This document shows, piece by piece, positions 19,411-37,261 of a stretch of 64,000 nucleotides of DNA (the first letter of the stretch is position 1; each line of letters starts with the position of its first letter). The stretch is taken from contig CACZUR010000003.1 of assembly GCA_902784435.1 (NCBI GenBank), positions 54,085-118,084 on the forward strand, read 5' to 3'. Below the pieces are notes generated by a model. It had not been told where the DNA came from and did no database searches. It saw only the letters and a program-made list of their open reading frames with translations. The stretch comes from an uncultured Bacteroidia bacterium (GTDB taxonomy: Bacteria > Bacteroidota > Bacteroidia > Bacteroidales > UBA932). The translations under genes and the position numbers were made by a program.

Positions 19411-22341
19411 ATGAAAAGGATTATCTCCACGTTGACCCTCTGGCTCTGCCTGACGGTCATGGTGTTCGCCCAGGGCGGATACCAGGTGAAGGGTGTGGTC
19501 ATCGACGCCCACGGGCCTGTGATTGGAGCCACTGTCATGGAACAGGGCACCTCCAATGGCACGGCCACGGGACTGGACGGTGACTATGTCCTGCGCGTCT
19601 CTTCCGCCGAAGCACTGGTAGAAATCAGCTGCATCGGCTATGCCACCCAGGTGTATGCCGCCAAGGCGGTTCCCCCGCGGGTGACCCTGGAAGAAGACAC
19701 CGAATTCCTGGACGATGTCGTAGTCATCGGCTACGGTACCCTGTCCAAAAAAGAATTGTCTGCCTCCGTCGTGCAGGTGGACAGTAAGGATTTCTTCCGC
19801 GGAACCACCAACAACCCCATGACCATGCTCACGGGTAAGGTGGCCGGTCTGAACGTGGTCACCAGCCAGGGTTCCAACCCGAACTCCGGCTCCGACTTCC
19901 AGATCCGCGGCGCCACCTCCCTGAATGCCGGCAACGGCCCGCTGGTGGTGATCGACGGTATCCCCGGCGGTGAACTCCGCAGCCTCTCGCCCCAGGACAT
20001 CGAGTCCATGACCGTCCTGAAGGATGCCGCATCGGCCTCCATCTACGGTACCAGCGGTGCCAACGGTGTGATTCTGATCACCACCAAGAAAGGCTCCAAG
20101 GACGAACCTGGCACGGCCCATGTCACCTACGACGGCGCCTTCAACGTGAACTTTGCCAAGGCCCCCATCGCCGTGCTCACGCCCGACGAGTGGGTACGCT
20201 CCCGCCGCGGAACGGACTACGGCTACCGCACCAACTGGTACCAGGCCCTCCTGCGCGACTTCTCCTACGGCCATACTCATTATGTGTCCGTGGACGGCAG
20301 CACCGCCAAGGGTTCCTACAACGCCTCCGTGAATTACAAGAATTCCCTGGGCGTAGACCTGGTGGACGCCCGTGAGGAATACGGCGCCCGCGCCGCCCTG
20401 GAGCAGCGCCTGATCAAGGACATCTTCCAGCTCAACGTGAGCCTGAACCTGCGCCGCGTGAATGAGGAGTATGGCAACGACGGTTCCTTCGGCACCGCCC
20501 TCACCATCAATCCCACCTTCCCCATCTACAATGAGGACGGCAGCTACTATCAGCCCACGGCTCCTACCAACGCCACCAACCCGGTGGAGGCCATGCTCAA
20601 CAAGACGGCCAACGGCCAGCGCATGTTCGCCACCGCCGCCGTCTCCCTGAAGGCCAACATCTTCAAGAACGATATCCACAACGTGAGCTCCACGGTCACA
20701 TACTCGCTGGACTACAACGACTACAAGTCCAACAACTACACGCCCATCGAGTCCCACGATAAGTATTGGAACGGCTACGAAGGCACCGCCTCCCTGAGCT
20801 ATTCCAAGAACTGGCGCAACCAGCTGGAATGGCTGTTCAACTACTCCTTCCACAGCGGCGCCCACCACATCAACGCCGTGGCCGGCTACTCTTACCAGGA
20901 TTTCAACTCCGAGAGCATGAACATCACCAACCGCGGCTTCGCCTACGACTCCATTCTGTGGAACGATATCGGCTCCGGTACCGCCCGCACGGAGAATCCC
21001 GCCCAGACCAGCATGGGCTCCGGCAAGTCCCTGAGCAAGGTAATCGCCGTCCTGGCCCGTGTGAACTACAACTGGAACAACCTCCTCTTCGCCCAGGTCT
21101 CCCTGCGCCGGGAAGGCGCCACCAACTTCGGTGACAAGAACAAGTGGGGTAACTTCCCCGCCGCTTCCGTCGCCTGGGAAATGGCCAATATGGACTTCAT
21201 GCGCAACGCCACTTGGGTGAACAGCCTCAAGCCCCGTGTGTCCTTCGGTGTCACCGGCCGCCGCGGGGGTTCCAACGTGGCCCGTCCCACCTACGGAAGC
21301 CATGGCCAGTATTATATGGACGGAGAATGGGTGAAGGGCTATCGGCCCGCCTCCAACGAAAACCCGGACCTGCGCTGGGAGAAACTGGTGGCCATCAACC
21401 TGGGTGTAGACTTCTCCTTCTTCGACAACCGCCTGCGCGGTAACCTGGACCTGTACGACCGCGAGAGCCCGGACCTGCTGTACAACTACACGGCTCCCCA
21501 GCCTCCGTTCATCCACAGCTCCATCCTGGTGAATGTGGGTAAGACCCGCAACATCGGTGCGGAACTCTCCCTGGAAGGCGACGTGTTCACCAAGACGCCC
21601 GTCAAGTGGACCACCGGCATCAACGCCGCCATCGGCACGTCCCAGATCGTCACCCTGTCCAACCAGATTTACGGTGCTTCCTACATCGACATGCTGGGCA
21701 CCGGCGGCCTGGGCCAGACCTCTTACTACTACCGTTACACGGAAGGCAGCACCATCGGTACCCTCTATGGCTACGAGGCCGCCGGCGTGAACGAGTATGG
21801 CGACATGATGGTGTATGACAAGGAAGGGAATGTGATTACCGCCGCATCGGCCAGCGCCGACAGCAAGCGCTACATCGGCAATACCATTCCCAAGCTGTTC
21901 CTGTCCTGGAACAACACCCTCCGCTACAAGAACTTCGACCTGAACATCCTGATGAACGGCGCCTTCGGCCACATGATTTACAACAACCGCCGCGCCGGCA
22001 ACCTCCAGAGTTCCGGTAACGCCAATGTGTTCCGCACCGCCTACACCCGCGACAAAGCCATTCGCGAATACGGCGGCGTGGTCACTTCCTTCTTCCTGGA
22101 AAAAGGCGACTTCATGAAGATCCAGAATGTCACCCTGGGTTACACCCTCCATCCCAGGAAAAAGGATATCCTCCAGAGCCTGCGCGTGTTCCTCACCGCT
22201 ACGGACCTGTACACCTTCACCGGTTATACGGGAACGGATCCGGCCCTGCTGAGCACCAACGGACTTACTCCCGGCGTGGATAACGGTGTCGGTTACCCGG
22301 AAACCCGTGTCGTCACCCTGGGTGCCACCATCACTTTCTAA
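19411..22341 (+). CDS. susC: SusC-like TonB-dependent outer membrane transporter
   Basis: 976 residues, near SusC of B. thetaiotaomicron in length. Signal peptide ending at VFAQ; carboxypeptidase-like N-terminal domain (about 25-105, QVKGVVIDAHGPVIGATVM); a TonB-box-like segment DVVVIGYGTLSKKELSASV; plug domain with QIRGATSLNAGNGPLVVIDGIPGG; then a 22-strand-type barrel to a terminal TLGATITF. Imports oligosaccharide captured by the SusD partner, driven by TonB. First gene of the operon. The starch/maltodextrin substrate is inferred from the CBM26 and GH13/GH31 neighbours. Confidence 0.95.
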   Translation: MKRIISTLTLWLCLTVMVFAQGGYQVKGVVIDAHGPVIGATVMEQGTSNGTATGLDGDYVLRVSSAEALVEISCIGYATQVYAAKAVPPRVTLEEDTEFLDDVVVIGYGTLSKKELSASVVQVDSKDFFRGTTNNPMTMLTGKVAGLNVVTSQGSNPNSGSDFQIRGATSLNAGNGPLVVIDGIPGGELRSLSPQDIESMTVLKDAASASIYGTSGANGVILITTKKGSKDEPGTAHVTYDGAFNVNFAKAPIAVLTPDEWVRSRRGTDYGYRTNWYQALLRDFSYGHTHYVSVDGSTAKGSYNASVNYKNSLGVDLVDAREEYGARAALEQRLIKDIFQLNVSLNLRRVNEEYGNDGSFGTALTINPTFPIYNEDGSYYQPTAPTNATNPVEAMLNKTANGQRMFATAAVSLKANIFKNDIHNVSSTVTYSLDYNDYKSNNYTPIESHDKYWNGYEGTASLSYSKNWRNQLEWLFNYSFHSGAHHINAVAGYSYQDFNSESMNITNRGFAYDSILWNDIGSGTARTENPAQTSMGSGKSLSKVIAVLARVNYNWNNLLFAQVSLRREGATNFGDKNKWGNFPAASVAWEMANMDFMRNATWVNSLKPRVSFGVTGRRGGSNVARPTYGSHGQYYMDGEWVKGYRPASNENPDLRWEKLVAINLGVDFSFFDNRLRGNLDLYDRESPDLLYNYTAPQPPFIHSSILVNVGKTRNIGAELSLEGDVFTKTPVKWTTGINAAIGTSQIVTLSNQIYGASYIDMLGTGGLGQTSYYYRYTEGSTIGTLYGYEAAGVNEYGDMMVYDKEGNVITAASASADSKRYIGNTIPKLFLSWNNTLRYKNFDLNILMNGAFGHMIYNNRRAGNLQSSGNANVFRTAYTRDKAIREYGGVVTSFFLEKGDFMKIQNVTLGYTLHPRKKDILQSLRVFLTATDLYTFTGYTGTDPALLSTNGLTPGVDNGVGYPETRVVTLGATITF

Positions 22342-22353
22342 TTGGACTGCTTT

Positions 22354-24156
22354 ATGAGAAAGATATTCAATCTGACTGTCATCGCTGCCGTAGCCCTGAG
22401 CCTGAGTTCCTGCTTCGACCTCACCGAAAAGGCTTTCAACCGCATCGAAAAAGACAATTTCTACCAGAACGAGGGTAGTGTGAAGGGCGCCATCGCTTCC
22501 GTGTACTATACGGCGGAAGGTTCCTTCGGCGAGTACTTCTTCTACCTGAACGAATTCTCCGCCGACCAGATTGCCTGGCGCGTATGGAACGGCGGTACCT
22601 GGGGCTGGGACAACGCAGAGAAGTTCGTGCTTTCCTCGCATACCTGGACTTCCCAGTCTTCCATCATCCAGAGCGCCTGGAACAATACCTGGGGCGCCAT
22701 CGGCGAATGCAACAGCATTATCCATGACCTCCAGACCATCGACCTGGCCGCCATCGGCGTTACCTCCGAAAAGGCCAGCCAGTACATCGACGAGATGCGG
22801 ACCCTGCGCGCCTGGTGCTACTACAACCTCTTCGAGGTATGGGGCGGCGCCCTGCCGCTGAACACGGAAGTCACTTCCGAGGTTCCGCCCACCGCAGACC
22901 CGGACTTCGACACCTCCTGCAAGAAGATCTGGCAGTTCCTGGTGGATGAACTGGACGCCAGCCTGGCCGGCCTTCCGAAGAACAATGTGAACCGGATGAA
23001 CCAGGCCACCAACCGCATGATCAAGGCCCGCCTGATGTTCAACGCCGAGGTCTTTGTCAAGGAAAACCACTACAGCGAGGCCGAGGCCCTGTGCAACGAA
23101 ATCCTGAGCGGCACCTACGGCACCTATGCCCTGGCCGATGATTTCCGCGACATCTACAACATCGACAACATCAACTGCCCCGAGGTCATCTTCGCACTGG
23201 CTTCCGAGTACGGCAAGTCCCACGGCAATGCCTACAACTGCCGCGACGTGACCTTCCTCCCGTACAATGCCTTCGGCGATCCGCTCTCCATCCTGGGCAC
23301 CAACAACGACCAGGGCCGCTGGAACTGCGTGATCATCGCCCCGTCCCACGACAACACCGGCACCGTGCTGCCTACCGGCGGCACCGACACCGGCGGCAAG
23401 TCCTTCGTCTTTGACTACGGCGACAAACTGGGCGCCGTGTATGACAGGTTCGACGACCGCGACATCCGCAAGAAACCCTACCACGCCGACACCAACGGCA
23501 ATTGGGAAGGCCTCTTCCTGATCGGCGCACAGAAGGATTACTACACGGGCGCCGCCCTTCCGGCCGATGCCGACCGCGACGGCCAGGATCTGGTGTACGT
23601 GGACCAGGTGGGTACCTTCCAGAACAAGGGCCGCGACTTGGCCGACGTGATGTCCCCGCACTGGGGCGAGACCAACTCCGGCTACCGTATGCTCCGCTAT
23701 CCCATCCTTCCGGATGTGTGCGGCGTAGACTTCCGCGACATCGACGAGGTGGAATTCCGCCTCTCGGAAGTGTACTATATGCTAGCCGAGTGCAAACTGC
23801 GCGCAGGCGACAGCGGTGCTGCCAAAGACTTGGTGAACCAGGTGCGCAAGCGCTACTTCAAGGCCTCCGACTGGGCCGCCGCCAAGGATGAACCCGGTCC
23901 CGGCTTCACTGCCTTCGATGCCGACTGGATGCTTAACGAGTGGGGCAAGGAGTTCCTCTGCGAGGGACGCCGCCGCCGCACCGACCTCCGTCGCTTTGAC
24001 AAATTCACCCAGGGCCAGTGGTGGTTCTTCGGCCGTGGAAAGGACGACGACTTCTATCCCGCCCAGCGCGACCGCAAGTACGAGTGGTTCCCGCTGCCGC
24101 AGGCTGCCCTTACGGTGAATCCCGGCCTTGTTCAGAATCCTAACTACGTTGAATAG
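22354..24156 (+). CDS. susD: SusD/RagB-type glycan-binding lipoprotein
   Basis: 600 residues from the ATG at 22354, 12 bases after the susC stop; this start gives a lipobox (VALSLSSC20). SusD-family N-terminal TPR-like helices are seen, with EMRTLRAWCYYNLFEVWGGALPL, and the C-terminal RYPILPDVCGVDFRDIDEVEFRLSEVYYMLAECKLRAGD and EWGKEFLCEGRRRRTDLRRFD. Forms the lid on SusC at the cell surface and hands over glycan. Confidence 0.95.
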   Translation: MRKIFNLTVIAAVALSLSSCFDLTEKAFNRIEKDNFYQNEGSVKGAIASVYYTAEGSFGEYFFYLNEFSADQIAWRVWNGGTWGWDNAEKFVLSSHTWTSQSSIIQSAWNNTWGAIGECNSIIHDLQTIDLAAIGVTSEKASQYIDEMRTLRAWCYYNLFEVWGGALPLNTEVTSEVPPTADPDFDTSCKKIWQFLVDELDASLAGLPKNNVNRMNQATNRMIKARLMFNAEVFVKENHYSEAEALCNEILSGTYGTYALADDFRDIYNIDNINCPEVIFALASEYGKSHGNAYNCRDVTFLPYNAFGDPLSILGTNNDQGRWNCVIIAPSHDNTGTVLPTGGTDTGGKSFVFDYGDKLGAVYDRFDDRDIRKKPYHADTNGNWEGLFLIGAQKDYYTGAALPADADRDGQDLVYVDQVGTFQNKGRDLADVMSPHWGETNSGYRMLRYPILPDVCGVDFRDIDEVEFRLSEVYYMLAECKLRAGDSGAAKDLVNQVRKRYFKASDWAAAKDEPGPGFTAFDADWMLNEWGKEFLCEGRRRRTDLRRFDKFTQGQWWFFGRGKDDDFYPAQRDRKYEWFPLPQAALTVNPGLVQNPNYVE

Positions 24157-24158
24157 CC

Positions 24159-26603
24159 ATGAAAAGACTCTTTACATATTTCACCATTCCGGTCCTGGCC
24201 CTGCTGGCGGCCTGCTCTCCCAAGCTGGAGATCGAGTACGCCCACGAAGCCCAGGCATTCCAGACGCAGAGCAATCTGATCCTGGTCGAGGGCATCATGC
24301 CGCAAGCATCCACCGCCACCGAGGAAATCTACATTGTGGGTGCTTTCAACGGGGATGAGGCTGCCATCGGCAACCCTGAGTACCTGATGACACACTCCGA
24401 GACCATCACCTCCAAGTGGGGCATCTACCTGGATCCCGCCCGATTCGTAAGCGGCAAGACCCTGGCCGACGGCTTCACTTTCTACTCTGTCCAGCAGGGC
24501 TATGAGCGCTCTTCCCGCAACGAGCCCGTGCTGCACAAGCTCACCATCGGCCCTGGAGAGTGGGCCAACGTGTATGCCGACAAGTGGGAGCAGTTCTTCA
24601 AGCCCGTGGAGGAAGAACCCGGCGTTGAACTGCCGGAGCACGCCGGCGTCCGCATCTACATCATCGACCAGACCGGCTGGGATGCCATCGCGCTGTACCA
24701 GTGGGGCGACGCGAACAACTTCGGCGGCAACTGGCCCGGTGCGGCGGTGACCGGCACGTGGAAGGCCGATGGCGTGGAGTACAAGTACTTCGAGTACGGC
24801 GACGACATCTTCGGCCTGGGGCAGAACCTCATCTTCAACAACAACGACAACGGCACGCAGCTGGCCGACTACAACGTTCACTTCGATGAAGGCGTAGCCG
24901 ACTACTTCTTCCTGGTGACGGCCGACGGTGTCGAAGAGATCCCGAATCCGGCCAGCGGCGGCGCCTCCGATCCCCGCGATGCCATGAAGGATGCCAGCCC
25001 CTGGAGCGTGATCGGTTCCATCGCCAGCACCGGCAACAGCTGGAACGCCGATGAACCCATGCTCACCGACGGCACCTGGCACGTCTGCCTGGGCCTGACG
25101 CTCACCGCTTCCGACGAATTCAAGTTCCGCAAGGATGCCGGCTGGGATGTGAACTTCGGCGGCGCTTTCGCCGCCGTCGGAGAAGCCTTCGAGGTAACCC
25201 AGGGCGGTGCCAACATCCTGGTGACCGAAGACGGAACCTACGACCTGTTCCTGAATCCGGATGCCGCCAAGGTGATCATCGTCTTTGCCGGGGACCGCGT
25301 GAACCTGGACGCCGGTGACAACCCCGGCGGCGAAGATCCCGGTCCCGTGGAACCCGCCCAGCCCAATGACCCCGTCACCATCTACGTGCAGGATCTGTCC
25401 GGCTGGGAGGCCCTGGCCCTGTACATGTGGGGCGACAAGAATATCGAGGGTGCCGATGTCAGCGGTGCCTGGCCCGGCCTGCTTCCCGCCGAAAAGACCG
25501 TAAAGCTTGGTACGGTGAGCTACAAGGTATTCGAAGTGCCGGATGCCCTGGGCCGTGCAGAGAACCTGATTTTCAACAACAACGGCGGCGGCGTGCAGAC
25601 GGCCGACCTGGCCCTCACCCTGGAGCCCGTCCAGTACATCCAGCTGGCCGACAACGGGGAAGGCACCATCGTGGCAACGGTCATCGATCCCACCAACCCG
25701 GACATCAAGATTCTCATCAACAACAAGACGGACTGGGAGGAAGTGGCCCTGTATGCCTGGGGCGATGCCGAAGCCTTCGGCGGCTGGCCCGGTGCGACGC
25801 CGGTGACCACCGAGGTGGTGAAAGGCGTGGAATACCTGGTCTTCGGCCTTCCCGCCGACATGGCCGGCAAGAGCCTCAACCTCATCTTCAACAATAACAA
25901 CAATGGCAAACAGCTGGAAGGCTTTGCCATCACGGTTCCCGAAGATGAGATCTTCCTAACCATCAATGCGGCCTACAGCCTGGGCAATGTGGAGGGCAAC
26001 CCCCGCGGCGAAGCTTCCACCATCTACGTGGTGAACAAGCAGGGCTGGGAGACGCTGAACCTCTATGCCTGGGGCGATGCCGAGGTCTTCGGCGGCTGGA
26101 CCGGTGCAGCCGGTACCAAGATCGGCACCTGGTGCGGAGAACCCGTCTACACCTTTGATGTGTCTGCCGATGCTTCCGGCAAGAATGAGAACCTGATTTT
26201 CAACAACGGCGAAGGCGCCCAGTTCGACGCCCTTTCCACCACGCTGGGCGAAGACCTGTTCCTGGAAATCGAGAACTCCACCTGCACCGAAACCACGCCG
26301 GCTACCCGCGTGTACGTGATCGACGAAACCGGTTGGGACGAGATTGCCCTCTATGTCTGGGGCACCTCCGAAATCTTTGGCGGATGGCCGGGCGCAGCCC
26401 CTGCCGGAACCCAGGAGATCGGCGGCGTGACTTACAAGTATTTCGAAGTGCCTGCCGCTGCCTTCGGCAACACGGCCAACTTCATCCTGAACAACAACAA
26501 TAACGGTGTTCAGCTGGAGAACTTCGACATCCTGAAGGGTCAGACCATCAAGACCGACTTCTACTTCCGCTTCACGGCAGACAACGTGACGGTCGTCGAA
26601 TAA
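24159..26603 (+). CDS. SusE/F-position surface lipoprotein with five CBM26-like repeats
   Basis: 814 residues, lipobox LALLAAC19. A SusE-type N-terminal beta domain (about 50-150) is followed by a repeated module of about 95 residues that starts at about 165, 407, 517, 620 and 717, each with the pattern IYxxxxxGWxxxALYxWGD...FGGWPGA...NLIFNNNxNG. This is the look of starch-binding family CBM26, where the Trp and Tyr residues stack on glucose. A SusF-like segment (WNADEPMLTDGTWHVCLGLTL) lies between repeats 1 and 2. It occupies the SusE slot two bases after susD. Predicted to hold starch granules or maltodextrin at the surface. Confidence 0.85.
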   Translation: MKRLFTYFTIPVLALLAACSPKLEIEYAHEAQAFQTQSNLILVEGIMPQASTATEEIYIVGAFNGDEAAIGNPEYLMTHSETITSKWGIYLDPARFVSGKTLADGFTFYSVQQGYERSSRNEPVLHKLTIGPGEWANVYADKWEQFFKPVEEEPGVELPEHAGVRIYIIDQTGWDAIALYQWGDANNFGGNWPGAAVTGTWKADGVEYKYFEYGDDIFGLGQNLIFNNNDNGTQLADYNVHFDEGVADYFFLVTADGVEEIPNPASGGASDPRDAMKDASPWSVIGSIASTGNSWNADEPMLTDGTWHVCLGLTLTASDEFKFRKDAGWDVNFGGAFAAVGEAFEVTQGGANILVTEDGTYDLFLNPDAAKVIIVFAGDRVNLDAGDNPGGEDPGPVEPAQPNDPVTIYVQDLSGWEALALYMWGDKNIEGADVSGAWPGLLPAEKTVKLGTVSYKVFEVPDALGRAENLIFNNNGGGVQTADLALTLEPVQYIQLADNGEGTIVATVIDPTNPDIKILINNKTDWEEVALYAWGDAEAFGGWPGATPVTTEVVKGVEYLVFGLPADMAGKSLNLIFNNNNNGKQLEGFAITVPEDEIFLTINAAYSLGNVEGNPRGEASTIYVVNKQGWETLNLYAWGDAEVFGGWTGAAGTKIGTWCGEPVYTFDVSADASGKNENLIFNNGEGAQFDALSTTLGEDLFLEIENSTCTETTPATRVYVIDETGWDEIALYVWGTSEIFGGWPGAAPAGTQEIGGVTYKYFEVPAAAFGNTANFILNNNNNGVQLENFDILKGQTIKTDFYFRFTADNVTVVE

Positions 26604-26660: not shown

Positions 26661-27992
26661 ATGAAAAAGATACTGTATTTCCTCGCGCTGGCCATCGCCT
26701 TCACGGCGTGCGGCTGCGGAAAACCCAAGGAACTGCCCATCATCCATACGGGAGACCAAGCCAATGCGCCTACCGAACTCCTGTCCCTGGAAGCATCGGC
26801 CCGCGACAACTGGCAAATCTATCAGGTGAACCTGAAACTGTACGGCAATTCCGGCGCTTTCGGCAAGGTGCAGGCCCGCCTGGACGACATCAAGGCCCTG
26901 GGCACGGAAATCCTGTACCTGATGCCGGTGTACGCCGATGGAAAGACCGTTTTGCCGGGTTTGCCCGGAAACAAGCCTTTCGGCTCGCCCTACTGCATCA
27001 AGAACTACAAGGAAGTGAACAGCCTGTACGGCTCGCTGGAAGAGCTGCGCTCGCTGGTGAAGGCCGCCAAGGGCAAGGGCATGAAAGTGATGTTCGACTG
27101 GGTGGCCAACCACACCTCCTGGGACAACGTCTGGCTCACCGAGCACCCGGAGTGGTACGAGCACAAGGCCGACGGCAGCATCGCCTGGCCCACCAAGGAC
27201 GGTGAGTGGAAGGATGTCGCGCAGCTGGACTTCGGAAAGAAAGAGCTGTGGGCCGCCATGGAGGATGCCCTGGAATACTGGGTGAAGGAACTGGACATCG
27301 ACGGCTACCGCTGCGACTATGCCCACGGGGTGCGGGACGACTTCTGGAAAGAAGCCATCGGCCGCCTCAAAGAGCTCAAGCCCGGCTTTGTGATGCTGGC
27401 CGAAAGCGACTTCGACCGGATGTACAACAATGGCTTCGACATCATCTTCGACCGCGCCATGAAATCCAATATGCGCAAGCTCTTCTCCGGCGGGAAACCG
27501 GCCGATTTCGTGTCCTGGTACAAGGGTGACCTGGCCAAGGCCCCCGCGCCCAAGACCAAGCTCTACTTCGTCACCAACCACGACGACGCTACGGAGGGAA
27601 CCCCTGCCGCCCAGTTCGGCTCCAACGAGGCCGCCCTGGCCGCTTACGTGCTCATGAGCGCCCTCAACGGCAGCGCCATGGTTTACGGCTCGCAGGAAAC
27701 AGGCTACTCCTCCACCATCAACTTCTTCAATACCCAGACCATGGACTGGAAAGCCAATCCCAGTCTGACCCAGGCCTACCAGGCGGCCCTTTCCGACCTG
27801 GCGGCCGGCGACCGCAGCAAGGCCGTCAAGATTTACGGCCTGGAGTCCCTGGTGGTGGTCCGCTATGCCTCCGGCTTCACCGTGGCGGTGAATACAGGCA
27901 AGACGGGCCTCACCGCCAACTTGTCCAAGATAGGCACGGGCCTTCCCGAAAAGCAGAGCTTCGGCGCATACGAATTCAAAATCTGGAAATAG
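26661..27992 (+). CDS. GH13 alpha-amylase-type lipoprotein
   Basis: 443 residues, lipobox AIAFTAC17, so probably surface- or outer-membrane-anchored (SusG position). GH13 (beta/alpha)8 barrel: region I-like VMFDWVANHTSW, region II DGYRCD219YAHG (nucleophile), region III LAE248SDF (acid/base), region IV TNHD308DA. It lacks long extra carbohydrate-binding domains and is shorter than SusG (692). Likely endo-acting on starch or maltodextrin, making pieces for SusC. Four bases separate it from the SusA-like gene. Confidence 0.9.
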   Translation: MKKILYFLALAIAFTACGCGKPKELPIIHTGDQANAPTELLSLEASARDNWQIYQVNLKLYGNSGAFGKVQARLDDIKALGTEILYLMPVYADGKTVLPGLPGNKPFGSPYCIKNYKEVNSLYGSLEELRSLVKAAKGKGMKVMFDWVANHTSWDNVWLTEHPEWYEHKADGSIAWPTKDGEWKDVAQLDFGKKELWAAMEDALEYWVKELDIDGYRCDYAHGVRDDFWKEAIGRLKELKPGFVMLAESDFDRMYNNGFDIIFDRAMKSNMRKLFSGGKPADFVSWYKGDLAKAPAPKTKLYFVTNHDDATEGTPAAQFGSNEAALAAYVLMSALNGSAMVYGSQETGYSSTINFFNTQTMDWKANPSLTQAYQAALSDLAAGDRSKAVKIYGLESLVVVRYASGFTVAVNTGKTGLTANLSKIGTGLPEKQSFGAYEFKIWK

Positions 27993-27995
27993 ACC

Positions 27996-29921
27996 ATGGA
28001 CAGGATTGCCAAAAAATTAGTAGCTTTGGTATGCGGAATCCTTTGTTCCGTCACAGCCATGAATGCACAGAAAATTATTCAGCACGTAGAGCCGCTGTGC
28101 TGGTGGACCGGCATGAACACCGAGCTGCAGCTGCTGGTGCACGGCCACCAGATCGGCCAGGCCGATGTTACCCTGGAGGGCGGCGCCGGCGTATACATCA
28201 AGGCCGTCCACAAGGCCGACAGCCCCAACTACCTGTTCATCGACCTGCAGATTGACGCGGCCGCCAAGCCGGGCACCTATACCTTCGTTTTCCGGCAGGA
28301 TGGCGTCACCGTGCGCTACCCCTACCAGATCAACGCCCGCGCGGCCGGGTCGGCCCTGCGGGAAAGCTACACCACCGCCGACCTTATCTACCTCATTGTC
28401 CCGGACCGCTTTGCCGACGGAGACCCTTCCATCGACTCCACCCCGGATACGGCCGAAAAAGCCAACCGGCAGCAGCCCATGGGGCGCCACGGCGGTGATA
28501 TCCAGGGCATCATCGACCACCTGGACTATATCGCGGACCTGGGTGCCACGGCCCTCTGGAGCACGCCGCTGCTGGGCGACAACGCCCGCCACGGCTCCTA
28601 CCACGGCTATGCCTGCAGCGACTACTACCACATCGACCCCCGCTATGGCACCAACGAGAAATACAAAGAGCTGGTGGAGGCCGCCCACGCCAGGGGCATC
28701 AAGATCGTGATGGACGTGGTCACCAACCACGCCAGCACGGAGCACTGGTGGATGAAAGACCTGCCGTTCAAGGACTGGATCCATGTGAACGAGCCTTACA
28801 TCAATTCCAACCACACCATGAGCCTGGCCCTGGATCCCAACGCCTCCAAGGCCGACCTGGCCGTCATGGAAGAGGGCTGGTTCTCCCGCGGCATGCCGGA
28901 CATGAACCTGGACAACCCTTACATGCTCAAGTACTTCCAGCAGTGGGCAGTGTGGTGGATCGAGTACTCGGGCCTGGACGGTTTCCGGGTGGATACCTGG
29001 TTCTACAACGAGAAAGTGCCCATGTCGCAGTGGGCCAAGGCCGTGACGGATGAATACCCGCATTTTAACATCGTGGGAGAGAACTGGAACGCCAATCCGG
29101 ATTACTGCGCCTACTGGCAGAAGGACAATCCCAACCGGGACGGTTTCAATTCCTACCTGCCCAGCATCATGGACTTCCCGCTGCAGGGCGCCATCTCACA
29201 GGCTTTCTCCGCGCCCATCCCCCGGGAGGGTGCAGCGGAGCAGCAGCCTGCCCGCGGACGCCGCGGGGCCGACATCTCGGCCGTGTACAATGCCCTGTCG
29301 CACGACTTTATCTACCACGACCTCAGCCACATGCTCATCTTCCTGTCCAACCACGACATCGCCCGTATCGGTGACACCTTCGGACAGGACCCGCGCCGCA
29401 TGAAGATGGCTTTCACGCTGCTGGCCACGCTGCGGGGCATCCCCCAGCTGTTCTACGGGGACGAGATGATGTTCACCATCGGCAACCCCCGCCGCGACGA
29501 CGGGCGCCTGCGCATGGACTTCCCCGGCGGCTGGGCGGGCGACCCGGTGAATCTCTTCACCGAGGAAGGGCGCAGGAAGGCATCGGCTGCGCCGGAATGG
29601 GCCCACGCCCAGGACCTGCACGACTATGCCCGCACCCTTTTCCAATGGCGCAAGGGCAAGGAGGTGATCCATGCCGGCAAAACCCTGCACTTCCTGCCCC
29701 AGGACAACACATACGGCTATTTCCGCTACAACGAAAAAGAAGTGGTGTTTGTGTTCGTAAACAACTCCCAGGAGGCTAAAAACGTTCCCTGGACGCGCTT
29801 CAAGGAGATTTCCGAAGGCCTGGGCGCCGGTAAGGATGTCATTACCGGAGAGCGTATTACGGTGTCGGACAGCACGGTGGTTCCGGCCTTGAGCACGCTC
29901 ATCGTGGAATTTCAGAAATAA
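27996..29921 (+). CDS. susA: GH13 neopullulanase/cyclomaltodextrinase, SusA-like
   Basis: 641 residues; signal peptide ending at MNAQ, so periplasmic. An N-terminal beta-sandwich (about 25-115, as in SusA and neopullulanases) is followed by the GH13 barrel with MDVVTNHAST, FRVD333TWFY, VGE362NWN and LSNHD454IARIG, and a C-terminal beta domain. Degrades imported maltodextrins or cyclodextrins to maltose/glucose. Ends the first transcription unit; a strong terminator follows. Confidence 0.93.
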   Translation: MDRIAKKLVALVCGILCSVTAMNAQKIIQHVEPLCWWTGMNTELQLLVHGHQIGQADVTLEGGAGVYIKAVHKADSPNYLFIDLQIDAAAKPGTYTFVFRQDGVTVRYPYQINARAAGSALRESYTTADLIYLIVPDRFADGDPSIDSTPDTAEKANRQQPMGRHGGDIQGIIDHLDYIADLGATALWSTPLLGDNARHGSYHGYACSDYYHIDPRYGTNEKYKELVEAAHARGIKIVMDVVTNHASTEHWWMKDLPFKDWIHVNEPYINSNHTMSLALDPNASKADLAVMEEGWFSRGMPDMNLDNPYMLKYFQQWAVWWIEYSGLDGFRVDTWFYNEKVPMSQWAKAVTDEYPHFNIVGENWNANPDYCAYWQKDNPNRDGFNSYLPSIMDFPLQGAISQAFSAPIPREGAAEQQPARGRRGADISAVYNALSHDFIYHDLSHMLIFLSNHDIARIGDTFGQDPRRMKMAFTLLATLRGIPQLFYGDEMMFTIGNPRRDDGRLRMDFPGGWAGDPVNLFTEEGRRKASAAPEWAHAQDLHDYARTLFQWRKGKEVIHAGKTLHFLPQDNTYGYFRYNEKEVVFVFVNNSQEAKNVPWTRFKEISEGLGAGKDVITGERITVSDSTVVPALSTLIVEFQK

Positions 29922-29986
29922 GTGCGACGTCGGGAGACGTCCGGTTTCCAATGTTCATTAGTGTGTAGTTTTTTAGCATTGGACTG

Positions 29987-30019
29987 AAGGGGGTGAGTGT
30001 TGGTTATCACCCCCTTTTT
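29987..30019 (+). terminator. Strong intrinsic terminator after the SusA-like gene
   Basis: Arms GGGGGTGA / TCACCCCC around GTGTTGGTTA, then TTTTT. Confidence 0.85.
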
Positions 30020-30032
30020 CGTAAAAAATCCG

Positions 30033-30040
30033 TATCTTTA
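30033..30040 (+). promoter_or_regulatory. -7 box for the GH13-GH127 fusion gene
   Basis: TATCTTTA, one base off TAnnTTTG, 15 nt before the start; together with the terminator upstream it makes a separate unit. Confidence 0.55.
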
Positions 30041-30055
30041 CAAACGACAGGCTTT

Positions 30056-33000
30056 ATGAGATTCCGTCTAATCATACTGGCTCTTCTGCTGCCGGTCCTT
30101 TCCCGGGCCATTGCCATAGACCGCATGGACCCGCCCTTCTGGTATACGGGCATGCAGAACCAGGAGGTCCAGATTCTGTTTTACGGCCCCGGCGTCGCCC
30201 GGGCGCAGCTCAGTCTGGACCCTTATCCGGGCGTGAGCCTGAAAGAGGTGGCCACCGTCCAGAATCCCAATTACCTTTTCGTCTACCTGAATGTGGCGCC
30301 CGAAGCGCAGCCCGGCACCCTGCAGTTCACTTTCAAAGAGGGCCGCAAGAAGACCGTGCAGTCCTTCCGGCTGCATGAGCGCAATCCCAAGCCCGGAGCG
30401 CAGGGTTTTACCTCGGCCGATGTGCTGTATCTCATCATGCCCGACCGCTTTTCCAACGGCAATCCCGGCAACGACGTGCTGGGGGAGTGGGGTGTGAACC
30501 GCGGTAACGGCGGCGGCCACCACGGCGGCGACCTCCAGGGCATCCGGGACCACCTGGACTATCTGGATGCGCTGGGCGTGACGGCCATCTGGCTGAACCC
30601 GGTGCAGTTCAACAAGGGAAACGCTTCCCACGGCTACTCCATCTCGGACTATTATCAGGTGGATCCGCGCCTGGGCAGCAATGAGGAGTATTGCCAGTTC
30701 ATCGACGCCGCCCACGAAAAGGGCCTGAAGGTGGTCATGGACATGATTTTCAACCACTGCGGTCGTTCGCATTGGTGGATGGAAGACCTTCCGGAGCCGG
30801 ACTGGATTCATCCCAACATCGAAAGGACCACCCATTACAAGTGGACGCTGATGGATCCGCATGCTCCAGAGAGCGAGAAAGAGGTGCTGGTAAACGGCTG
30901 GTTCTCGGGCGGCATGCCGGACCTGAACCAGAAGAACCGCCACCTGGCCGCCTATCTGATCCAGAACAGCATCTGGTGGATAGAATATGCCCGCATCGAC
31001 GGCATCCGCATGGACACCTACCCGTATGCCGATTACGACTTCATGGTGCGCTGGTGCAGGGAAGTGGAAGCCCAGTACCCGGACTTCAACATCGTGGGCG
31101 AGGGCTGGTATCCCCGCAATTCTGCCGCCGGCTGGTGGCAGGGAGGATCGGCCCTGAACCCCTCCGACCCGCATCTGAAGACGGTGATGGACTTCGACCT
31201 CACCTTTACGGCCAAACGGGAAATGCTCAGGGAGAGCAACACCTCAGAAGGCTCCGAGGCCGGTCTTTTCAAGCTGTACGAATGCATCGCCCAGGACTTC
31301 CTGATTCCTGACCCTGGTCACGTGCTCACTTTCCTGGACAACCACGACATCGCCCGCTTCATGGAGCCCGGCGAGCCTGCCTGGAAGCTGAAGCAGGGCC
31401 TGGCCTTCCTGCTCACCACCCGCGGCATCCCGCAAATCTACTACGGGACCGAGATTGCGATGGGCGGGCGGGATGCCCTCCGTGCCGATTTCCCCGGCGG
31501 CTGGGCCGAAGACCCGCGCAGCGCCTTCACCCGGGAAGGGCGTACGGCCTTTGAAAATGAGTGCTGGGATTTTGCCAGCAAGCTGCTGAACTGGCGCCGG
31601 ACCTCCGGGCCTGTGGCTAATGGCAGGCTCATCCACTATACCCCGGACAATGCCACCAAGTGCTATGTCTATGCCCGCACGGACGGGAAAAACACCGTGC
31701 TGGTCATCCTGAACGGCTCCGACAAGGAACAGACCGTGCCCATGGGACGGTTCCGGGAGGCCATCGGCACCTATGACATCGGCCGGGATGCCGTCAGCGG
31801 AGAGGTGGTCAAGCTTACGGAACCCGTGAAAATAGCCCCCAGGGGGGTGTATGTGCTGGATCTGGCGCAATCGGCCCCGGCGTACGCGGTTTTTGACGAA
31901 GGTCTCATAGACCGCATTCAGGCGCAGGGCTGGCTGGCGGAAATCCTGAAACGCCAGCGGGAAGGCCTTACGGGCCACCCAGAGGCCATGGCCTACCCCT
32001 ACAACTCTGTGCTCTGGGCCGGAGAACTGAAGCGGGATTCCGACAGGCGCGGGGCCGACTGGTGGCGCTTCGAGCAAACCGCCTACTATCTGGACGGACT
32101 CACCCGCCTGGGCTATCTGCTGGACGACGAAGCCCTCCTGGCCAAATGGCAGGAAAACATAGAATATGTGCTGGCGCATCCGCTGCCTTTCAAAGAAGGG
32201 GTGGAACTGCCGCCGGCCGAACCCCGCGGAGGGCGGAGTTTCGGTGCGCAGGTGTCGGAGGACCCCCGCGCCCAGCAGCGGATCCAGCGCTTCCGGGAGC
32301 GGGATGCCCGCCGGCGCCGGATTGCCGCGATAGACCGTCCGGAAGGCCGTCTGGGCCCCGAAACCGAATCCATGGCCTGGCCCTGGGCCGTTTTCTTCCG
32401 GGCCGTCAAGGCATATTATGAGGCCACCGCAGACCCGCGCATCCCGGCCGCCCTGGAGAAGAATTACCTGTCCTATCCGGTGGAGGAACTGGGAATGGAC
32501 CGCTTCGTGGTTAACGTGGAGGGTATGCTGTGGACTTACTCCCTCACCGGGAATCCCGCCCTGCTGGAGCGTGCCGTGGCCGCCTGGAAGGAGAATGCCT
32601 CCGAGCTTACGCAGGCATCGGCCCTGGACGGGAGCGAATTCCACATGCACGGGGTTACCATGAACGAACTCCTGAAGGTTCCGCTGCTGCTGTACGAATA
32701 CACCGGCGAAAAGCCTTACCTGGATGCCGCGCTGCACGCGATGGCCAAGATGGAAGGGCCCAATATGCTGGTGGACGGTGTGAATTCCTCGTCCGAGGCC
32801 CTCGCGGGCAACGACGCCCTGGCCAGCCACGAGACCTGCGATGTCAGCGACTACACCTGGACGGCCGGTTACTACCTCATGGCTACCGGCGACGGCAGCT
32901 GGGCCGACCGCATAGAGAACGCCATCTTCAACGCGGGCCTGGGCTCCATCACCAAGGACTTCCGCTCCATGCAGTATTTCTCCTGCCCCAACCAGGTCAT

Positions 33001-33868
33001 CGCCACGGGTAACTCCAACCACAACCGTTTCAAGCACGGTCTCACCTGGATGGCTTACCGGCCCATCCACGAGACGGAATGCTGTATAGGCAACCTGCAC
33101 CGCTATATGCCCAATTACGTGGCCCGCATGTGGCTCAAGGACCGGAACGGGCAGCCGGTGGCCGCCCTCTACGGGCCTTCCACCGTTGAATACGGCCTGG
33201 GCGGCGGCCTCAGCGTGCGCATCGTGGAAGAGACCGCCTATCCCTTCGAGGAGCAGGTGCGCTTTACCTTCCGCTTCTTCCGGAACGGGGCCGAAGTAAG
33301 CACTCCCGTTCCCATGGATTTCACCTACCGCATTCCCGGGTGGTGTCCGTCGGCCCAGGGAAAAGGCTTCCATACCGTTTCGCGCAGCTGGGTGAGCGGT
33401 GAGAGCTTTACCGTACAGCTTCCTATGCAGGTGGAGCCGGTAGAGACGCCCGGAGGCGGCCTTTCGCTTCGCCGCGGCCCCATCCTGTACACCTATGCCG
33501 TTCCTGCCAGCGTACAGGAAGATACGGCAGTTTATGACAATCTGGCCGGGAAAGTGTCGGCCAATCCGGATTTCAAGAGCTGGTCCATGACTCCCGCCGG
33601 GGCCTGGAACTATGCCCTGGTGCAGGACCGGCTGCAGGAAGTGAAACTGGTCCGGACCGGTGCCGAAGGCTTCCCCTTCGACCCTTCGGCCGTACCTCTG
33701 AAACTGCGGGTGCCCGTGGTGAAGGTCCAGGGCTGGACGCTGGACCAGGACCGGTATACGCCTGCCTTGCCCCAGACCGTAGTGCCGGAAAGCCGGAAAG
33801 TCTCCTATATAGAACTTGTACCTTACGGGAGCACCACGCTCCGGCTCACCATATTCCCGAAATACTAA
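30056..33868 (+). CDS. Fusion of GH13 neopullulanase and GH127-clan hydrolase
   Basis: 1270 residues from the ATG at 30056 (signal peptide RLIILALLLPVLSRAIA; the longer frame starts inside the terminator). Residues about 20-610 are a complete SusA-like GH13 with N-terminal sandwich, MDMIFNHCGR, IRMD320TY, VGE349GWY and LDNHD431IARF. Residues about 616-1270 are a DUF1680/GH127-type (alpha/alpha)6 region with SSE914A, E926TC928D and E1008C1009C1010IGN, matching the Glu and Zn-binding Cys set of beta-L-arabinofuranosidases. Both active sites look intact. A linker of about 60 residues near 740-790 is Arg- and Gln-rich. The GH31 gene follows 12 bases later. Two-enzyme polypeptide, periplasmic; real substrate of the second half unknown. 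Confidence 0.88.
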   Translation: MRFRLIILALLLPVLSRAIAIDRMDPPFWYTGMQNQEVQILFYGPGVARAQLSLDPYPGVSLKEVATVQNPNYLFVYLNVAPEAQPGTLQFTFKEGRKKTVQSFRLHERNPKPGAQGFTSADVLYLIMPDRFSNGNPGNDVLGEWGVNRGNGGGHHGGDLQGIRDHLDYLDALGVTAIWLNPVQFNKGNASHGYSISDYYQVDPRLGSNEEYCQFIDAAHEKGLKVVMDMIFNHCGRSHWWMEDLPEPDWIHPNIERTTHYKWTLMDPHAPESEKEVLVNGWFSGGMPDLNQKNRHLAAYLIQNSIWWIEYARIDGIRMDTYPYADYDFMVRWCREVEAQYPDFNIVGEGWYPRNSAAGWWQGGSALNPSDPHLKTVMDFDLTFTAKREMLRESNTSEGSEAGLFKLYECIAQDFLIPDPGHVLTFLDNHDIARFMEPGEPAWKLKQGLAFLLTTRGIPQIYYGTEIAMGGRDALRADFPGGWAEDPRSAFTREGRTAFENECWDFASKLLNWRRTSGPVANGRLIHYTPDNATKCYVYARTDGKNTVLVILNGSDKEQTVPMGRFREAIGTYDIGRDAVSGEVVKLTEPVKIAPRGVYVLDLAQSAPAYAVFDEGLIDRIQAQGWLAEILKRQREGLTGHPEAMAYPYNSVLWAGELKRDSDRRGADWWRFEQTAYYLDGLTRLGYLLDDEALLAKWQENIEYVLAHPLPFKEGVELPPAEPRGGRSFGAQVSEDPRAQQRIQRFRERDARRRRIAAIDRPEGRLGPETESMAWPWAVFFRAVKAYYEATADPRIPAALEKNYLSYPVEELGMDRFVVNVEGMLWTYSLTGNPALLERAVAAWKENASELTQASALDGSEFHMHGVTMNELLKVPLLLYEYTGEKPYLDAALHAMAKMEGPNMLVDGVNSSSEALAGNDALASHETCDVSDYTWTAGYYLMATGDGSWADRIENAIFNAGLGSITKDFRSMQYFSCPNQVIATGNSNHNRFKHGLTWMAYRPIHETECCIGNLHRYMPNYVARMWLKDRNGQPVAALYGPSTVEYGLGGGLSVRIVEETAYPFEEQVRFTFRFFRNGAEVSTPVPMDFTYRIPGWCPSAQGKGFHTVSRSWVSGESFTVQLPMQVEPVETPGGGLSLRRGPILYTYAVPASVQEDTAVYDNLAGKVSANPDFKSWSMTPAGAWNYALVQDRLQEVKLVRTGAEGFPFDPSAVPLKLRVPVVKVQGWTLDQDRYTPALPQTVVPESRKVSYIELVPYGSTTLRLTIFPKY

Positions 33869-33880
33869 AACAAAACCCAT

Positions 33881-36226
33881 ATGCGTAAACTGTTGCTCAT
33901 AACCGCTCTTGTTGCGGCCGCTTTCCAGGCCTTTGCCGCCTCCGGAAACAATCCCGTAGCCAATCCCAAAGCCCAGGTGGTGGAAGGAAAGGCCCGTTTC
34001 ACCGTGCTCACGGACCGGCTCGTCCGCCTGGAATGGGCGGCCGACGGCCAGTTTGAAGACCATGCCTCGCTGGCCGTCGTGAACCGCGACCTGCCGGTGC
34101 CGGCCTTCAGCGTTTCCCGTTCCGGCGGGGCCCTGACCCTGAAAACGAAGTCCCTTACCCTCGTGTACAAGGGCGGGGAAGGTCCTCTTTCGGCCGACAA
34201 TCTTTCCGTCACTTTCAAAATGGGCGGGAAAACCGTGAAATGGCATCCCGGCCTGGAAGACACGGGCAACCTGATGGGCACCGCCCGCACGCTGGACGGC
34301 TGCGAGGGCCCGGACAAGATTAACTTCAACGACCCCATGGAGAAGGGCATCCTGTCCCGCGACGGCTGGGCCGTGGTGGACGAGAGCCAGCGGCATCTGC
34401 TGGTGCCCGACGACAGCGACTGGGGCGAATGGGTGGCCGCCCGTCCGGAAGGGGAGCGGCAGGACCTGTACCTGTTTGCCTACGGCCACGACTACAAGGC
34501 CGCCCTGGCCGATTATACGAAGGTGGCCGGCAGCATCCCCATGCCCCCGAAGTTTGTCTTCGGATACTGGTGGAGCCGCTACTGGGCCTACACGGACCGG
34601 GAATTCCTGGCCCTGGGACAGGAATTCCGTGAGCGGAAACTGCCCATCGACGTGATGGTGATTGACATGGACTGGCACCACACCTGGCAGCATGCCAGCC
34701 GCGAAGAAAAGCGCAAAGGCATCGGCTGGACCGGCTACACCTGGAACCGCGACCTCATCGCCCAGCCGGAAGCATTCCTGGCGCAGGTGCATGCCCTGGG
34801 GCTCAAGACGTCCCTGAACCTGCATCCGGCCGGCGGCATCAGCCCGCGCGAGAATCAGTATCCGGCCTTCCTGGCCGACTATCTGTCCCGGACCAGCGAC
34901 TATGACGGCCCGCGCGGCTACCTCCTGCGCGACGGCAATTACACCGATGTGCCGTTCCGGATCGACCAGCGTGCCTGGACCGACGCCTATTTCAATTCCG
35001 TCCTGCATCCCCTGGAGAAAGAGGGCGTAGACTTCTGGTGGCTGGATTGGCAGCAGTGGAAGGAGAGCAAGTATACCCCCGGCTTGAGCAACACCTTCTG
35101 GCTCAACCATACCTTCTTCAACGACAAGGTACGCCGCAACCGCGGCCTGGCCCCCGAGAAGGCCGAACGTCCGCTCATCTATCACCGCTGGGGCGGTCTG
35201 GGCAGCCACCGGTATCAGCTGGGTTTCTCCGGCGACACCCACATCAAATGGGAGGTGCTGGGTTACCTGCCGGAATTCACCGCTACGGCTTCCAACGTGC
35301 TCTACGGCTACTGGGGCCACGACCTGGGCGGCCACATGCAGCGCGGCGACCACCCCACAGACCCGGAACTGTTCACCCGCTGGCTGCAGTATGGTGTTTT
35401 CTCGCCCATCTTCAAGACACACAGCACCTCATCGGCCGTCCTGGAGCGCCGCATCTGGATGTTCCCGGACCACTACGAATACATGAAAGCGGCCCTGGAG
35501 CTCCGTTATGCCCTGTCCCCGTACATCTACGACATGGCCCGGGAGGCCTATGAGACGGGCATTTCCCTGTGCCGGCCGCTCTACTACGAGTATCCGGAAA
35601 AGGCCGAAGCCTACCAGTGGAAACAGGAGTACTTCTTCGGCGACAATATCCTGGCCGCCACTGTGTGCGAGCCCGTCGGGGCCGACGGCCTGGCTGGCCG
35701 CGACGTATGGCTTCCCGCCGGTACCCAGTGGTACGACATGGCCCACCACCAACTGCTGCCGGGCGGCACCGTGCAGAAACTGCAGTACGCCATCGGGGAA
35801 AACTGCTGGTTCGTGAAAGCCGGCGCCATCCTGCCTCTGGCCGGGGAAGGCATCCAGAACCTGCAGTCCGTGTCTGATGAACTGCGCATCTACATTGCCC
35901 CGGGTAACGGCCGCAGCAGCTACACGCATTTCGAGGACGACGGCGTTTCGCAGGCCTATCCCACCCAGTTCTCCGCCACGAAGATTGTCAAGGTGGCCAG
36001 CGGTTCCGGCGTGACGGTGGAAATCGGCCCGGCCGAAGGCTCCTATGCCGGCAAACCCGCCAGCCGCAAGCTCTCGCTGGTGCTGGGCGGCGCCTCCCGC
36101 TGCCCCAAGGCCACGCTGAACGGCCAGCCGCTGGAGTGCCAATACAATGCCGATACCCGCGAAGCCTCGGTCTTCCTCCCCGCCACCCCCGCCGCCCAGG
36201 CCCAGAAGGTGGTGGTGAAGTGGTAA
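33881..36226 (+). CDS. GH31 alpha-glucosidase, exported
   Basis: 781 residues, signal peptide ending at FAAS. N-terminal GH31 beta-sandwich, then the barrel: PPKFVFGYWWSRYWAYTD, nucleophile region FWWLD389WQQW, acid/base region FSGD452THIKWEV, and LYGYWGHDLGGHM. C-terminal beta domains complete the fold. Splits glucose from the non-reducing end of oligosaccharides. It fills the role that SusB (GH97) has in the classical Sus locus. Co-transcribed with the fusion gene; hairpin E2 follows. Confidence 0.93.
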   Translation: MRKLLLITALVAAAFQAFAASGNNPVANPKAQVVEGKARFTVLTDRLVRLEWAADGQFEDHASLAVVNRDLPVPAFSVSRSGGALTLKTKSLTLVYKGGEGPLSADNLSVTFKMGGKTVKWHPGLEDTGNLMGTARTLDGCEGPDKINFNDPMEKGILSRDGWAVVDESQRHLLVPDDSDWGEWVAARPEGERQDLYLFAYGHDYKAALADYTKVAGSIPMPPKFVFGYWWSRYWAYTDREFLALGQEFRERKLPIDVMVIDMDWHHTWQHASREEKRKGIGWTGYTWNRDLIAQPEAFLAQVHALGLKTSLNLHPAGGISPRENQYPAFLADYLSRTSDYDGPRGYLLRDGNYTDVPFRIDQRAWTDAYFNSVLHPLEKEGVDFWWLDWQQWKESKYTPGLSNTFWLNHTFFNDKVRRNRGLAPEKAERPLIYHRWGGLGSHRYQLGFSGDTHIKWEVLGYLPEFTATASNVLYGYWGHDLGGHMQRGDHPTDPELFTRWLQYGVFSPIFKTHSTSSAVLERRIWMFPDHYEYMKAALELRYALSPYIYDMAREAYETGISLCRPLYYEYPEKAEAYQWKQEYFFGDNILAATVCEPVGADGLAGRDVWLPAGTQWYDMAHHQLLPGGTVQKLQYAIGENCWFVKAGAILPLAGEGIQNLQSVSDELRIYIAPGNGRSSYTHFEDDGVSQAYPTQFSATKIVKVASGSGVTVEIGPAEGSYAGKPASRKLSLVLGGASRCPKATLNGQPLECQYNADTREASVFLPATPAAQAQKVVVKW

Positions 36227-36314
36227 TGCCGGTGTGACCTTCCCCAAAATGCCCCATGATCTTCCCCGGCCGTTTTGTGGCTGGCTCGTAAGTGTTTGAT
36301 TTATAGTATGTTAT

Positions 36315-36351
36315 GGATTTTTATCGGAGCAAATTGCGCCGATAAAAATCC
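36315..36351. repeat. Hairpin element E2 between convergent genes
   Basis: Perfect 13-bp arms GGATTTTTATCGG / CCGATAAAAATCC around AGCAAATTGCG, flanked by TTTGATTTATAG and CTCGTTGATG. Lies between the GH31 gene and rsmA and can stop either transcript. Same arms, with one change, as the element before asd. Confidence 0.7.
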
Positions 36352-36409
36352 ACAACTCGTTGATGGTGAGGCGTTTGTGCACCAGGCATACCCAGCCTTT
36401 CGGGGGTAC

Positions 36410-37261
36410 TTAGGCCAGCAGATTGGTGAGGGCCGCGAAGTCCTCCACGGAGAGCTGCTCCGGGCGCTGGGAAAAGACGGGTTGGGCCAGGAAGGCCGAC
36501 AGGGCGTCCTCCGACCAGCCCTCGCGTTCCGCTTTGGCGCGGGCGAGCGGCTTCAGGGGGTTCCGCATCATCTTGCGGCGCTGGCCGAAGGCGGTTTTTA
36601 CCACGGCCTTGAACAGGGATTCGTCGCAGCCCAGGGACGTGCGGCCGTTCCGGCGCAGCCGGATGACGGCGCTCTCCACCTTGGGCGGCGGGGCGAAGCA
36701 GCCGGAACCCACGGTGAACAGATACTCGATGTCGTACCAGGCCTGCAGCAGCACGGACAGGATGCCGTAGGTCTTGGAGCCCGGCGGACAGGCGATGCGC
36801 TCGGCCACCTCCTTCTGCACCATGCCCACCACTTCGGGGATGCTGTCCTTGTAGTCCAGCACCTTGAAGAAAATCTGGGACGATATGTTGTAAGGGAAAT
36901 TGCCGATGATGCCGAACTGCCCGGGGAACAGTTTCTCCAGCCGGAGCCGCAGGAAGTCCCCTTCCATGAGCCGGCCCTGCATGCCCTGGAAGTGCGTGAG
37001 GAGGTATTCCACGCTTTCGGTGTCAATCTCGATGAGCCGGAGGTCGATGTCTTCCCGCTCCAGCAGGTACTGGGTAAGGACCCCCATTCCCGGCCCCACT
37101 TCCAGGACGGGGAAGGGATGCCCGGTCGGGGCCGGGAATGACAAGGCGCCGTCATTCCCGGCCTGACCGGGAATCTTCAGGGCGTCCACAATGGCGCGGG
37201 CCACCTTCTGGTCCGTGAGAAAATGCTGCCCGAGGGCCTTTTTTGCGCGTACTTCCGTCAT
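36410..37261 (-). CDS. rsmA: 16S rRNA dimethyladenosine transferase with inserted peptide
   Basis: 283 residues. KsgA/RsmA dimethylates two adenosines near the 3' end of 16S rRNA. N-terminal VRAKKALGQHFLTD, SAM motif VLEVGPGMGVLTQYLL, and catalytic IIGNFPYNISSQI are intact. Between AL28 and VLEVG about 20 extra residues (KIPGQAGNDGALSFPAPTGH) replace the short normal linker; they are encoded by a compound palindromic element and keep the frame. The promoter box sits 5 nt before the ATG. Runs leftwards, converging on the GH31 gene. Confidence 0.96.
   Translation of the reverse strand: MTEVRAKKALGQHFLTDQKVARAIVDALKIPGQAGNDGALSFPAPTGHPFPVLEVGPGMGVLTQYLLEREDIDLRLIEIDTESVEYLLTHFQGMQGRLMEGDFLRLRLEKLFPGQFGIIGNFPYNISSQIFFKVLDYKDSIPEVVGMVQKEVAERIACPPGSKTYGILSVLLQAWYDIEYLFTVGSGCFAPPPKVESAVIRLRRNGRTSLGCDESLFKAVVKTAFGQRRKMMRNPLKPLARAKAEREGWSEDALSAFLAQPVFSQRPEQLSVEDFAALTNLLA
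37117..37175. repeat. Compound palindromic insert inside rsmA
   Basis: Two GTCAT...ATC elements in opposite orientation: 37117-37142 (GAT-GCCCGG...CCGGGA-ATGAC) and 37151-37175 (GTCAT-TCCCGG-CCTGA-CCGGGA-ATC). Length keeps rsmA in frame. Confidence 0.75.

Follow-up and report, generated by a model that had tools for sequence, protein, structure and literature searches.

The stretch of DNA analysed here (the window) comprises 64,000 nucleotides of contig CACZUR010000003.1 from the draft genome of an uncultured Bacteroidia bacterium (GCA_902784435.1; 42 contigs, 82.6% complete). It contains a gene, here called the fusion, in which a SusA-like GH13 enzyme and an enzyme of the GH127 clan form one polypeptide. 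Translation of the window gives an uninterrupted open reading frame from ATG to stop (30056–33868, plus strand), whose parts are collected in Table 1. All three cyclomaltodextrinase-type domains (N-terminal, catalytic and C-terminal) were found in the first half, residues 23–601, and the Pfam Alpha-amylase match at residues 127–473 reached 2.7e-52. Among the 25 of 43 NCBIfam families listed for the fusion, all were of the GH13 type or its relatives, each under its cut-off. Among solved structures, the first half is closest to SusA (PDB 9fyz, 1e-172), which aligned over its full length with residues 20–601 and shares the catalytic Asp, Glu and Asp. The SusA chain (610 residues) has no second enzyme and stops where the linker of the fusion starts. 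An earlier reading made from the letters alone (the sequence-only reading) had named the GH13 set D320, E349 and D431. These residues align with SusA and are invariant in all 12 rows of alignment A2. Of 15 known fused proteins, this alignment contains that of the window and those of 11 out of 14 relatives. The opposite strand has an open frame of 1392 residues (31244–35422, minus strand), which is most likely a codon-use shadow in GC-rich genes.

The second half was recognised by the Pfam model of the GH127 catalytic domain (PF07944; residues 820–1020, 8.8e-14, 51.7 bits against a cut-off of 24.9), the match covering only profile positions 181–373 of 376, and by that of the GH127 middle domain (PF20736; 30.6 bits against a curated cut-off of 24.2). 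No domain model matched the C-terminal residues 1125–1270. The pattern E914, E926-x-C928, C1009-C1010, also given by the sequence-only reading, does not vary in any of the 83 rows of relatives of this half, the window included. It aligns with E322, E338, C340, C417 and C418 of HypBA1 (3wkw), which we take to be the acid/base Glu and the Glu-Cys3 zinc set; the same set is present in 4qjy. Because the catalytic and zinc residues are conserved, the second half is likely active as an enzyme. As a profile we used alignment A1, 67 second-half sequences from the window and 66 of the 82 listed relatives. Against solved structures the profile gave 1.4e-48 for 4qjy, 2.3e-40 for 5mqo (the second-best match) and 6.8e-29 for HypBA1. 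The GH127 chains scored 103–169 bits versus 54–79 for 5opj, 8k7x and 8k7y, which we take to be beta-L-arabinofuranosidases of GH146. By these scores the second half appears nearer to the GH127 than to the GH146 structures, and the proposed GH127-clan similarity was found. The entry 5mqo, listed as a non-reducing end beta-L-arabinofuranosidase, is presumably BT1003, an aceric acid hydrolase of rhamnogalacturonan II, that is, an enzyme with a different substrate; we know of no link of it to starch.

The likeness to characterised enzymes is distant. The second half is identical to HypBA1 at 78 of 398 aligned residues (19.6%) and to 4qjy at 95 of 398 (23.9%). In HypBA1, according to PMC10850190, the substrate is bound by R273, H194, H142 and Y145; the paper also gives the Glu-Cys3 zinc site as common to GH127 and GH146. 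These four residues align with T868, V818, S772 and W775, and none of the four is kept. The column of R273 and T868 is well anchored by the invariant H865 three residues away. Among the 50 rows of at least 45% identity, T868 is kept in all and S772 in 46; 10 of the 33 more distant rows have His at the latter position. The sequence-only reading had GH127-type enzymes acting on beta-L-arabinofuranosides or other rare sugars. This is right, and the range is wider: the family also includes alpha-1,3-(3,6-anhydro)-D-galactosidases (PMC5698469) and an aceric acid hydrolase (PMC10850190). The former, the DagA enzymes of a carrageenan locus, illustrate that the activities of the family extend to other sugars and to alpha linkages. 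Judged by sequence, each half is of a known kind, and the second half appears to be an uncharacterised branch near GH127.

A scan with one genome per species gave 71 loci. Such a survey had been proposed by the sequence-only reading, and it turned out that 14 of the 71 carry an uninterrupted SusA-GH127 fusion (L022–L028, L030, L033, L035, L050, L051, L065 and L070). The record titles of these loci refer to samples from sheep, goat, water buffalo, yak and cow, or contain project codes only. L001–L003 and identical rows were excluded from the relatives, as were L069, L072 and L073, which are too short. At 1e-60, relatives were found in 86 of 400 genomes of the window's genus. The family sample had them in 13 of 299 genomes, every one from the window's genus, and the order sample, at 1e-100, in 2 of 393; the window's own genome is counted each time. 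The 400-genome set overlaps the assemblies of the 71-locus scan, and at most three candidates per genome were scored at this first look. Because assemblies are partly shared, the 15 long SusA-type frames in the genus set cannot be counted as evidence separate from the 14 loci. Records under the names Alistipes, Bacteroides and Parabacteroides likewise contain free (unfused) relatives, at 63–68% identity. The fusion was the only place in the window's own genome where PF07944 was found. A literature search, limited to titles, so that a mention in print is possible, found a GH13-GH127 fusion in none of them. The ratio of nonsynonymous to synonymous substitution rates (dN/dS) was 0.01–0.17 in both halves for nine pairs drawn from 14 of the 15 fused genes; the pairs are non-independent, and several dS values are near or above 1, partly saturated at silent sites. 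Both halves are under purifying selection. The fusion is confirmed as a genuine, conserved two-enzyme gene.

The free GH127 forms suggest how the two enzymes could have come together. A strict lipobox is present in 25 of 34 of them; of the rest, judged by eye, seven have a cysteine ending the hydrophobic start, one is cut by a contig end and one is doubtful. The free GH127 genes of L039 and L040 start 11 and 12 nucleotides past the SusA stop codon. In L028, the SusA end RGTYIFDLK continues into PAPEYAQFSEGLID, where the mature lipoprotein starts, and this junction has no stop codon, signal peptide or cysteine; the linker of the window is shorter and of the same kind. Linkers differ among the fused loci. 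In a tree of the second half (38 rows; rows below 64% identity and L048 and L062 omitted), fused forms stand in two places, with L039 and L040 beside four of them. A single clade of fused forms was rejected by the approximately unbiased test (p-AU 3e-48), and an earlier quick tree gave the same picture. The tree of the SusA half has the GH127 domain on two paralogues, one in the window and L022–L025 and a second one in ten loci. The first paralogue is free and lies upstream of the fusion in L027, L028, L030, L050, L065 and L070. Two SusA paralogues carry the domain, and the fused forms do not make up a single clade; the sequences therefore indicate either repeated joining of the domain to SusA or an exchange of its partner by deletion. 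An old fusion that split, with a regained signal, is a less simple explanation. L064 has a decayed SusA piece (L064:6220-7350) that is spread over more than one frame and lacks the N-terminal part; it lies outside the fused clades, and its paralogue was assigned by eye. Because this piece precedes an intact free GH127 gene, which is accompanied by SusA2 and GH31, it speaks for an old SusA-GH127 gene pair. Recombination of the SusA half between paralogues was also considered and rejected: the window half is nearer to its own paralogue in 13 of 14 windows of 40 residues, the exception being residues 221–260 (0.63 versus 0.65). This check used 6 of the 8 free copies and, for the other paralogue, 10 of its 12 rows, with residues 581–605 judged by eye only.

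The fusion lies inside a starch locus, beside a GH31 gene, as the sequence-only reading had placed it; the neighbouring SusC, SusD, CBM26, GH13 and GH31 genes bear this out (Table 1). Further starch genes accompany 11 of the 14 fusions of the scan, and GH31 was found with 10 of the 14, the match in L025 being distant (28%). The same reading had given the gene its own promoter, and this claim stood in part. In its favour, a strong terminator-like hairpin sets the gene apart from the preceding one, and TATCTTTA lies near, one base off what we take to be the Bacteroidota -7 box consensus. On the other side, the Bacteroidota two-box pattern did not match at TATCTTTA, and a sigma-70 scan of 27900–36500 found no promoter. 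Over the same interval there were 8 terminator-like sites versus a shuffle mean of 8.7, which is no excess, in a scan that cannot register the hairpin before the fusion (its loop is too long). In L023 the fusion and GH31 are oriented opposite to the remaining starch genes. This orientation, together with the hairpin, makes the fusion and GH31 look like a separate unit. Just past the starch locus and an rRNA adenine dimethylase gene, the window contains a DUF3990 gene (37323–38003, plus strand).

Table 1. Parts of the SusA-GH127 fusion gene and other features of the starch locus (window positions).
Feature	Position	Strand	Basis
SusA-GH127 fusion gene, 1270 residues	30056..33868	+	Open frame; Pfam; same fusion in 14 of 71 loci
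Predicted signal peptide, about residues 1–20, without lipobox cysteine	30056..30115	+	Translation, judged by eye
Cyc-maltodext_N, residues 23–110	30122..30385	+	Pfam
GH13 catalytic domain, residues 127–473, with D320, E349, D431	30434..31474	+	Pfam; alignment
Cyc-maltodext_C, residues 525–601, end of SusA	31628..31858	+	Pfam; alignment with SusA
Linker (fusion point), about residues 602–615	31859..31900	+	Set against the ends of free SusA and the starts of free lipoproteins
GH127-like catalytic part, about residues 616–1030, with E914, E926, C928, C1009, C1010	31901..33145	+	
GH127 middle domain (PF20736), residues 1037–1124	33164..33427	+	Pfam
C-terminal part, residues 1125–1270, kept in relatives	33428..33865	+	Alignment A1
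Terminator-like hairpin and U-run, 5' of the fusion gene	29986..30017	+	-18.9 kcal/mol, z -4.2
TATCTTTA, one base off the presumed Bacteroidota -7 box	30033..30040	+	Sequence
SusC-like TonB-dependent receptor	19411..22341	+	
SusD-like protein	22342..24156	+	
Protein with five CBM26 (starch-binding) stretches	24159..26603	+	
GH13 alpha-amylase	26661..27992	+	
SusA2, second SusA-like GH13, a different paralogue	27996..29921	+	
GH31 gene, starting 12 nucleotides past the fusion stop codon	33881..36226	+	

SusA-type neopullulanases cut imported maltodextrins, and fused enzymes often share one target molecule. We tentatively favour, with somewhat less than even confidence, the reading that the fusion encodes a bifunctional periplasmic glycosidase of the starch locus, whose second half, with its altered sugar site, takes a decoration or cap sugar that is probably not beta-L-arabinofuranose. 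We infer the location, the activity of each half, the exo action and the substrate as follows. The first half is predicted to be a SusA-type neopullulanase that would cut imported maltodextrins. The second half would be a retaining exo-glycosidase of the GH127 type with a zinc-cysteine site and a changed sugar-binding site, and probably removes a sugar other than beta-L-arabinofuranose. A neighbouring lipoprotein gene may have lost its signal and become joined to the end of SusA, which would release the second enzyme from its lipid anchor and bring it into the SusA compartment. With the compartment shared after the join, the incoming oligosaccharides may be substrates of both halves, the first attacking the alpha-glucan and the second a decoration or cap. 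The best single reading of the second half is that it would remove a sugar from alpha-glucans. That a neopullulanase was joined via two paralogues to one kind of zinc-cysteine glycosidase domain points to a substrate in which an alpha-glucan is combined with another sugar, or to a maltodextrin cap. Because two SusA paralogues were joined and the four HypBA1 sugar-binding residues are lost, a decorated alpha-glucan or a new activity comes into question. A new activity of the second half, taking a non-glucose sugar off alpha-glucans or their oligosaccharides, is possible, although unlikely in our estimate; the fusion would then mark an undescribed, decorated alpha-glucan of the ruminant gut, be it starch, glycogen or one made by bacteria. 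If true, such a mixed substrate or maltodextrin cap would be a gap in the knowledge of gut starch use. The two halves are separable for expression, so the substrate question is directly testable.

Several findings weigh against the reading of a sugar on alpha-glucans. The columns of H142, Y145 and H194 are weakly aligned, with long gaps; of the four, R273 alone has an invariant residue close by as an anchor. Neighbours were counted by a six-frame search (gene calls missed genes in several loci), and the counts lean upwards because the sought proteins were taken from some of the same loci. The 58 stretches without a SusA fusion, three of which (L128–L130) carry other fusions, had GH13 in 8, GH31 in 5, GH97 in 1, GH123 in 4, GH20 in 5, GH3 in 7, GH2 in 6, SusC in 11 and BD-FAE esterases in 9. 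In 20 control regions, taken from eight genomes of the window's genus, GH13, GH97, GH3 and GH2 occurred in 1 each, SusC in 4 and the others in none; 19 loci of distant DUF1680 relatives had GH20 in 1, GH2 in 2, SusC in 9 and none of the others. The excess of GH13 (8 of 58 versus 1 of 20 controls) is thus small, with L039 and L040 among the eight. The nearest free clade, eight rows of about 70–73% identity, has no sought gene nearby. Three of the 14 fusions (L026, L033 and L035, of which L026 alone was annotated by Pfam) lie among GH123_N, DUF5107 and GH123, with no other starch gene found. Therefore, given the neighbour counts, the bare free clade and these fusions, the sugar of the second half is probably not peculiar to starch. 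The neighbourhood as a key to the substrate was dropped, since settings varied and the stretches without a SusA fusion had no single shared partner.

Another possibility is that the second half acts on a non-starch glycan, for example one containing hexosamine, the join to SusA being a matter of genomic neighbourhood. We consider this rather unlikely. A number of loci fit it. L052 combines GH123, GH3, GH123-GH20 and GH2 genes, the GH2 gene ending 3 nucleotides before the GH127 start, and in L147 a free GH127 gene follows GH31 among GH123, GH97 and GH20 genes. Other relatives lie with esterases (L055), with Gfo/Idh/MocA genes (L041) or with no sought gene. A GH3-GH127 fusion of 1385 residues is present in L128:6119-10276 and L129:6761-10918 (Pfam on L128 only), adjoining a hybrid two-component regulator and GH123. 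Nevertheless, two SusA paralogues bear the domain, selection maintains it, an unfused GH127-SusA neighbour pair exists within a starch locus, and a GH123 search of the window's own genome was empty.

A further, rather unlikely reading makes the second half an ordinary beta-L-arabinofuranosidase, with the fusion doing no more than saving a signal peptide or co-regulating enzymes that meet the same plant material. The half is of the GH127 type with a complete zinc-cysteine set, and AraA_N was found in 10 of the 14 other fusion genomes, where arabinose use is thus common. Against this stand the low identity to HypBA1 and 4qjy and the loss of all four HypBA1 sugar-binding residues. AraA_N had no match in the window's genome, a weak point at 82.6% completeness. 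Arabinose metabolism was dropped as an argument, since AraA_N was not found in the window's genome but in most of the others. The window's genome has GH43 at two places, one of them above the cut-off.

The changed substrate residues would also fit a GH127-like half that is no longer hydrolytic and serves the neopullulanase as a binding or structural module, but this is quite improbable: the catalytic and zinc residues are invariant throughout the relatives, and dN/dS is like that of the GH13 half. An assembly or sequencing artefact, with a gene boundary lost near 31900 of a window that does come from a draft genome, is extremely unlikely, because relatives from several projects carry the same fusion with differing linkers.

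Some minor observations concern the loci of the relatives. L130:2868-5921 encodes a GH127-like domain and then a histidine phosphatase domain in one frame. The starch locus of L039 has an alkaline phosphatase gene (PF00245; L039:12014-13516) between GH127 and GH31; gaps of similar size between these genes in L030, L040, L065 and L070 may hold such a gene. At the end of the L039 locus lies a GH28-like gene (PF00295, 2.1e-09; L039:17877-19289). Past the free GH127 gene of L041, the stretch L041:12127-20550 encodes two Gfo/Idh/MocA oxidoreductases, SusC, SusD and a xylose-isomerase-like protein.

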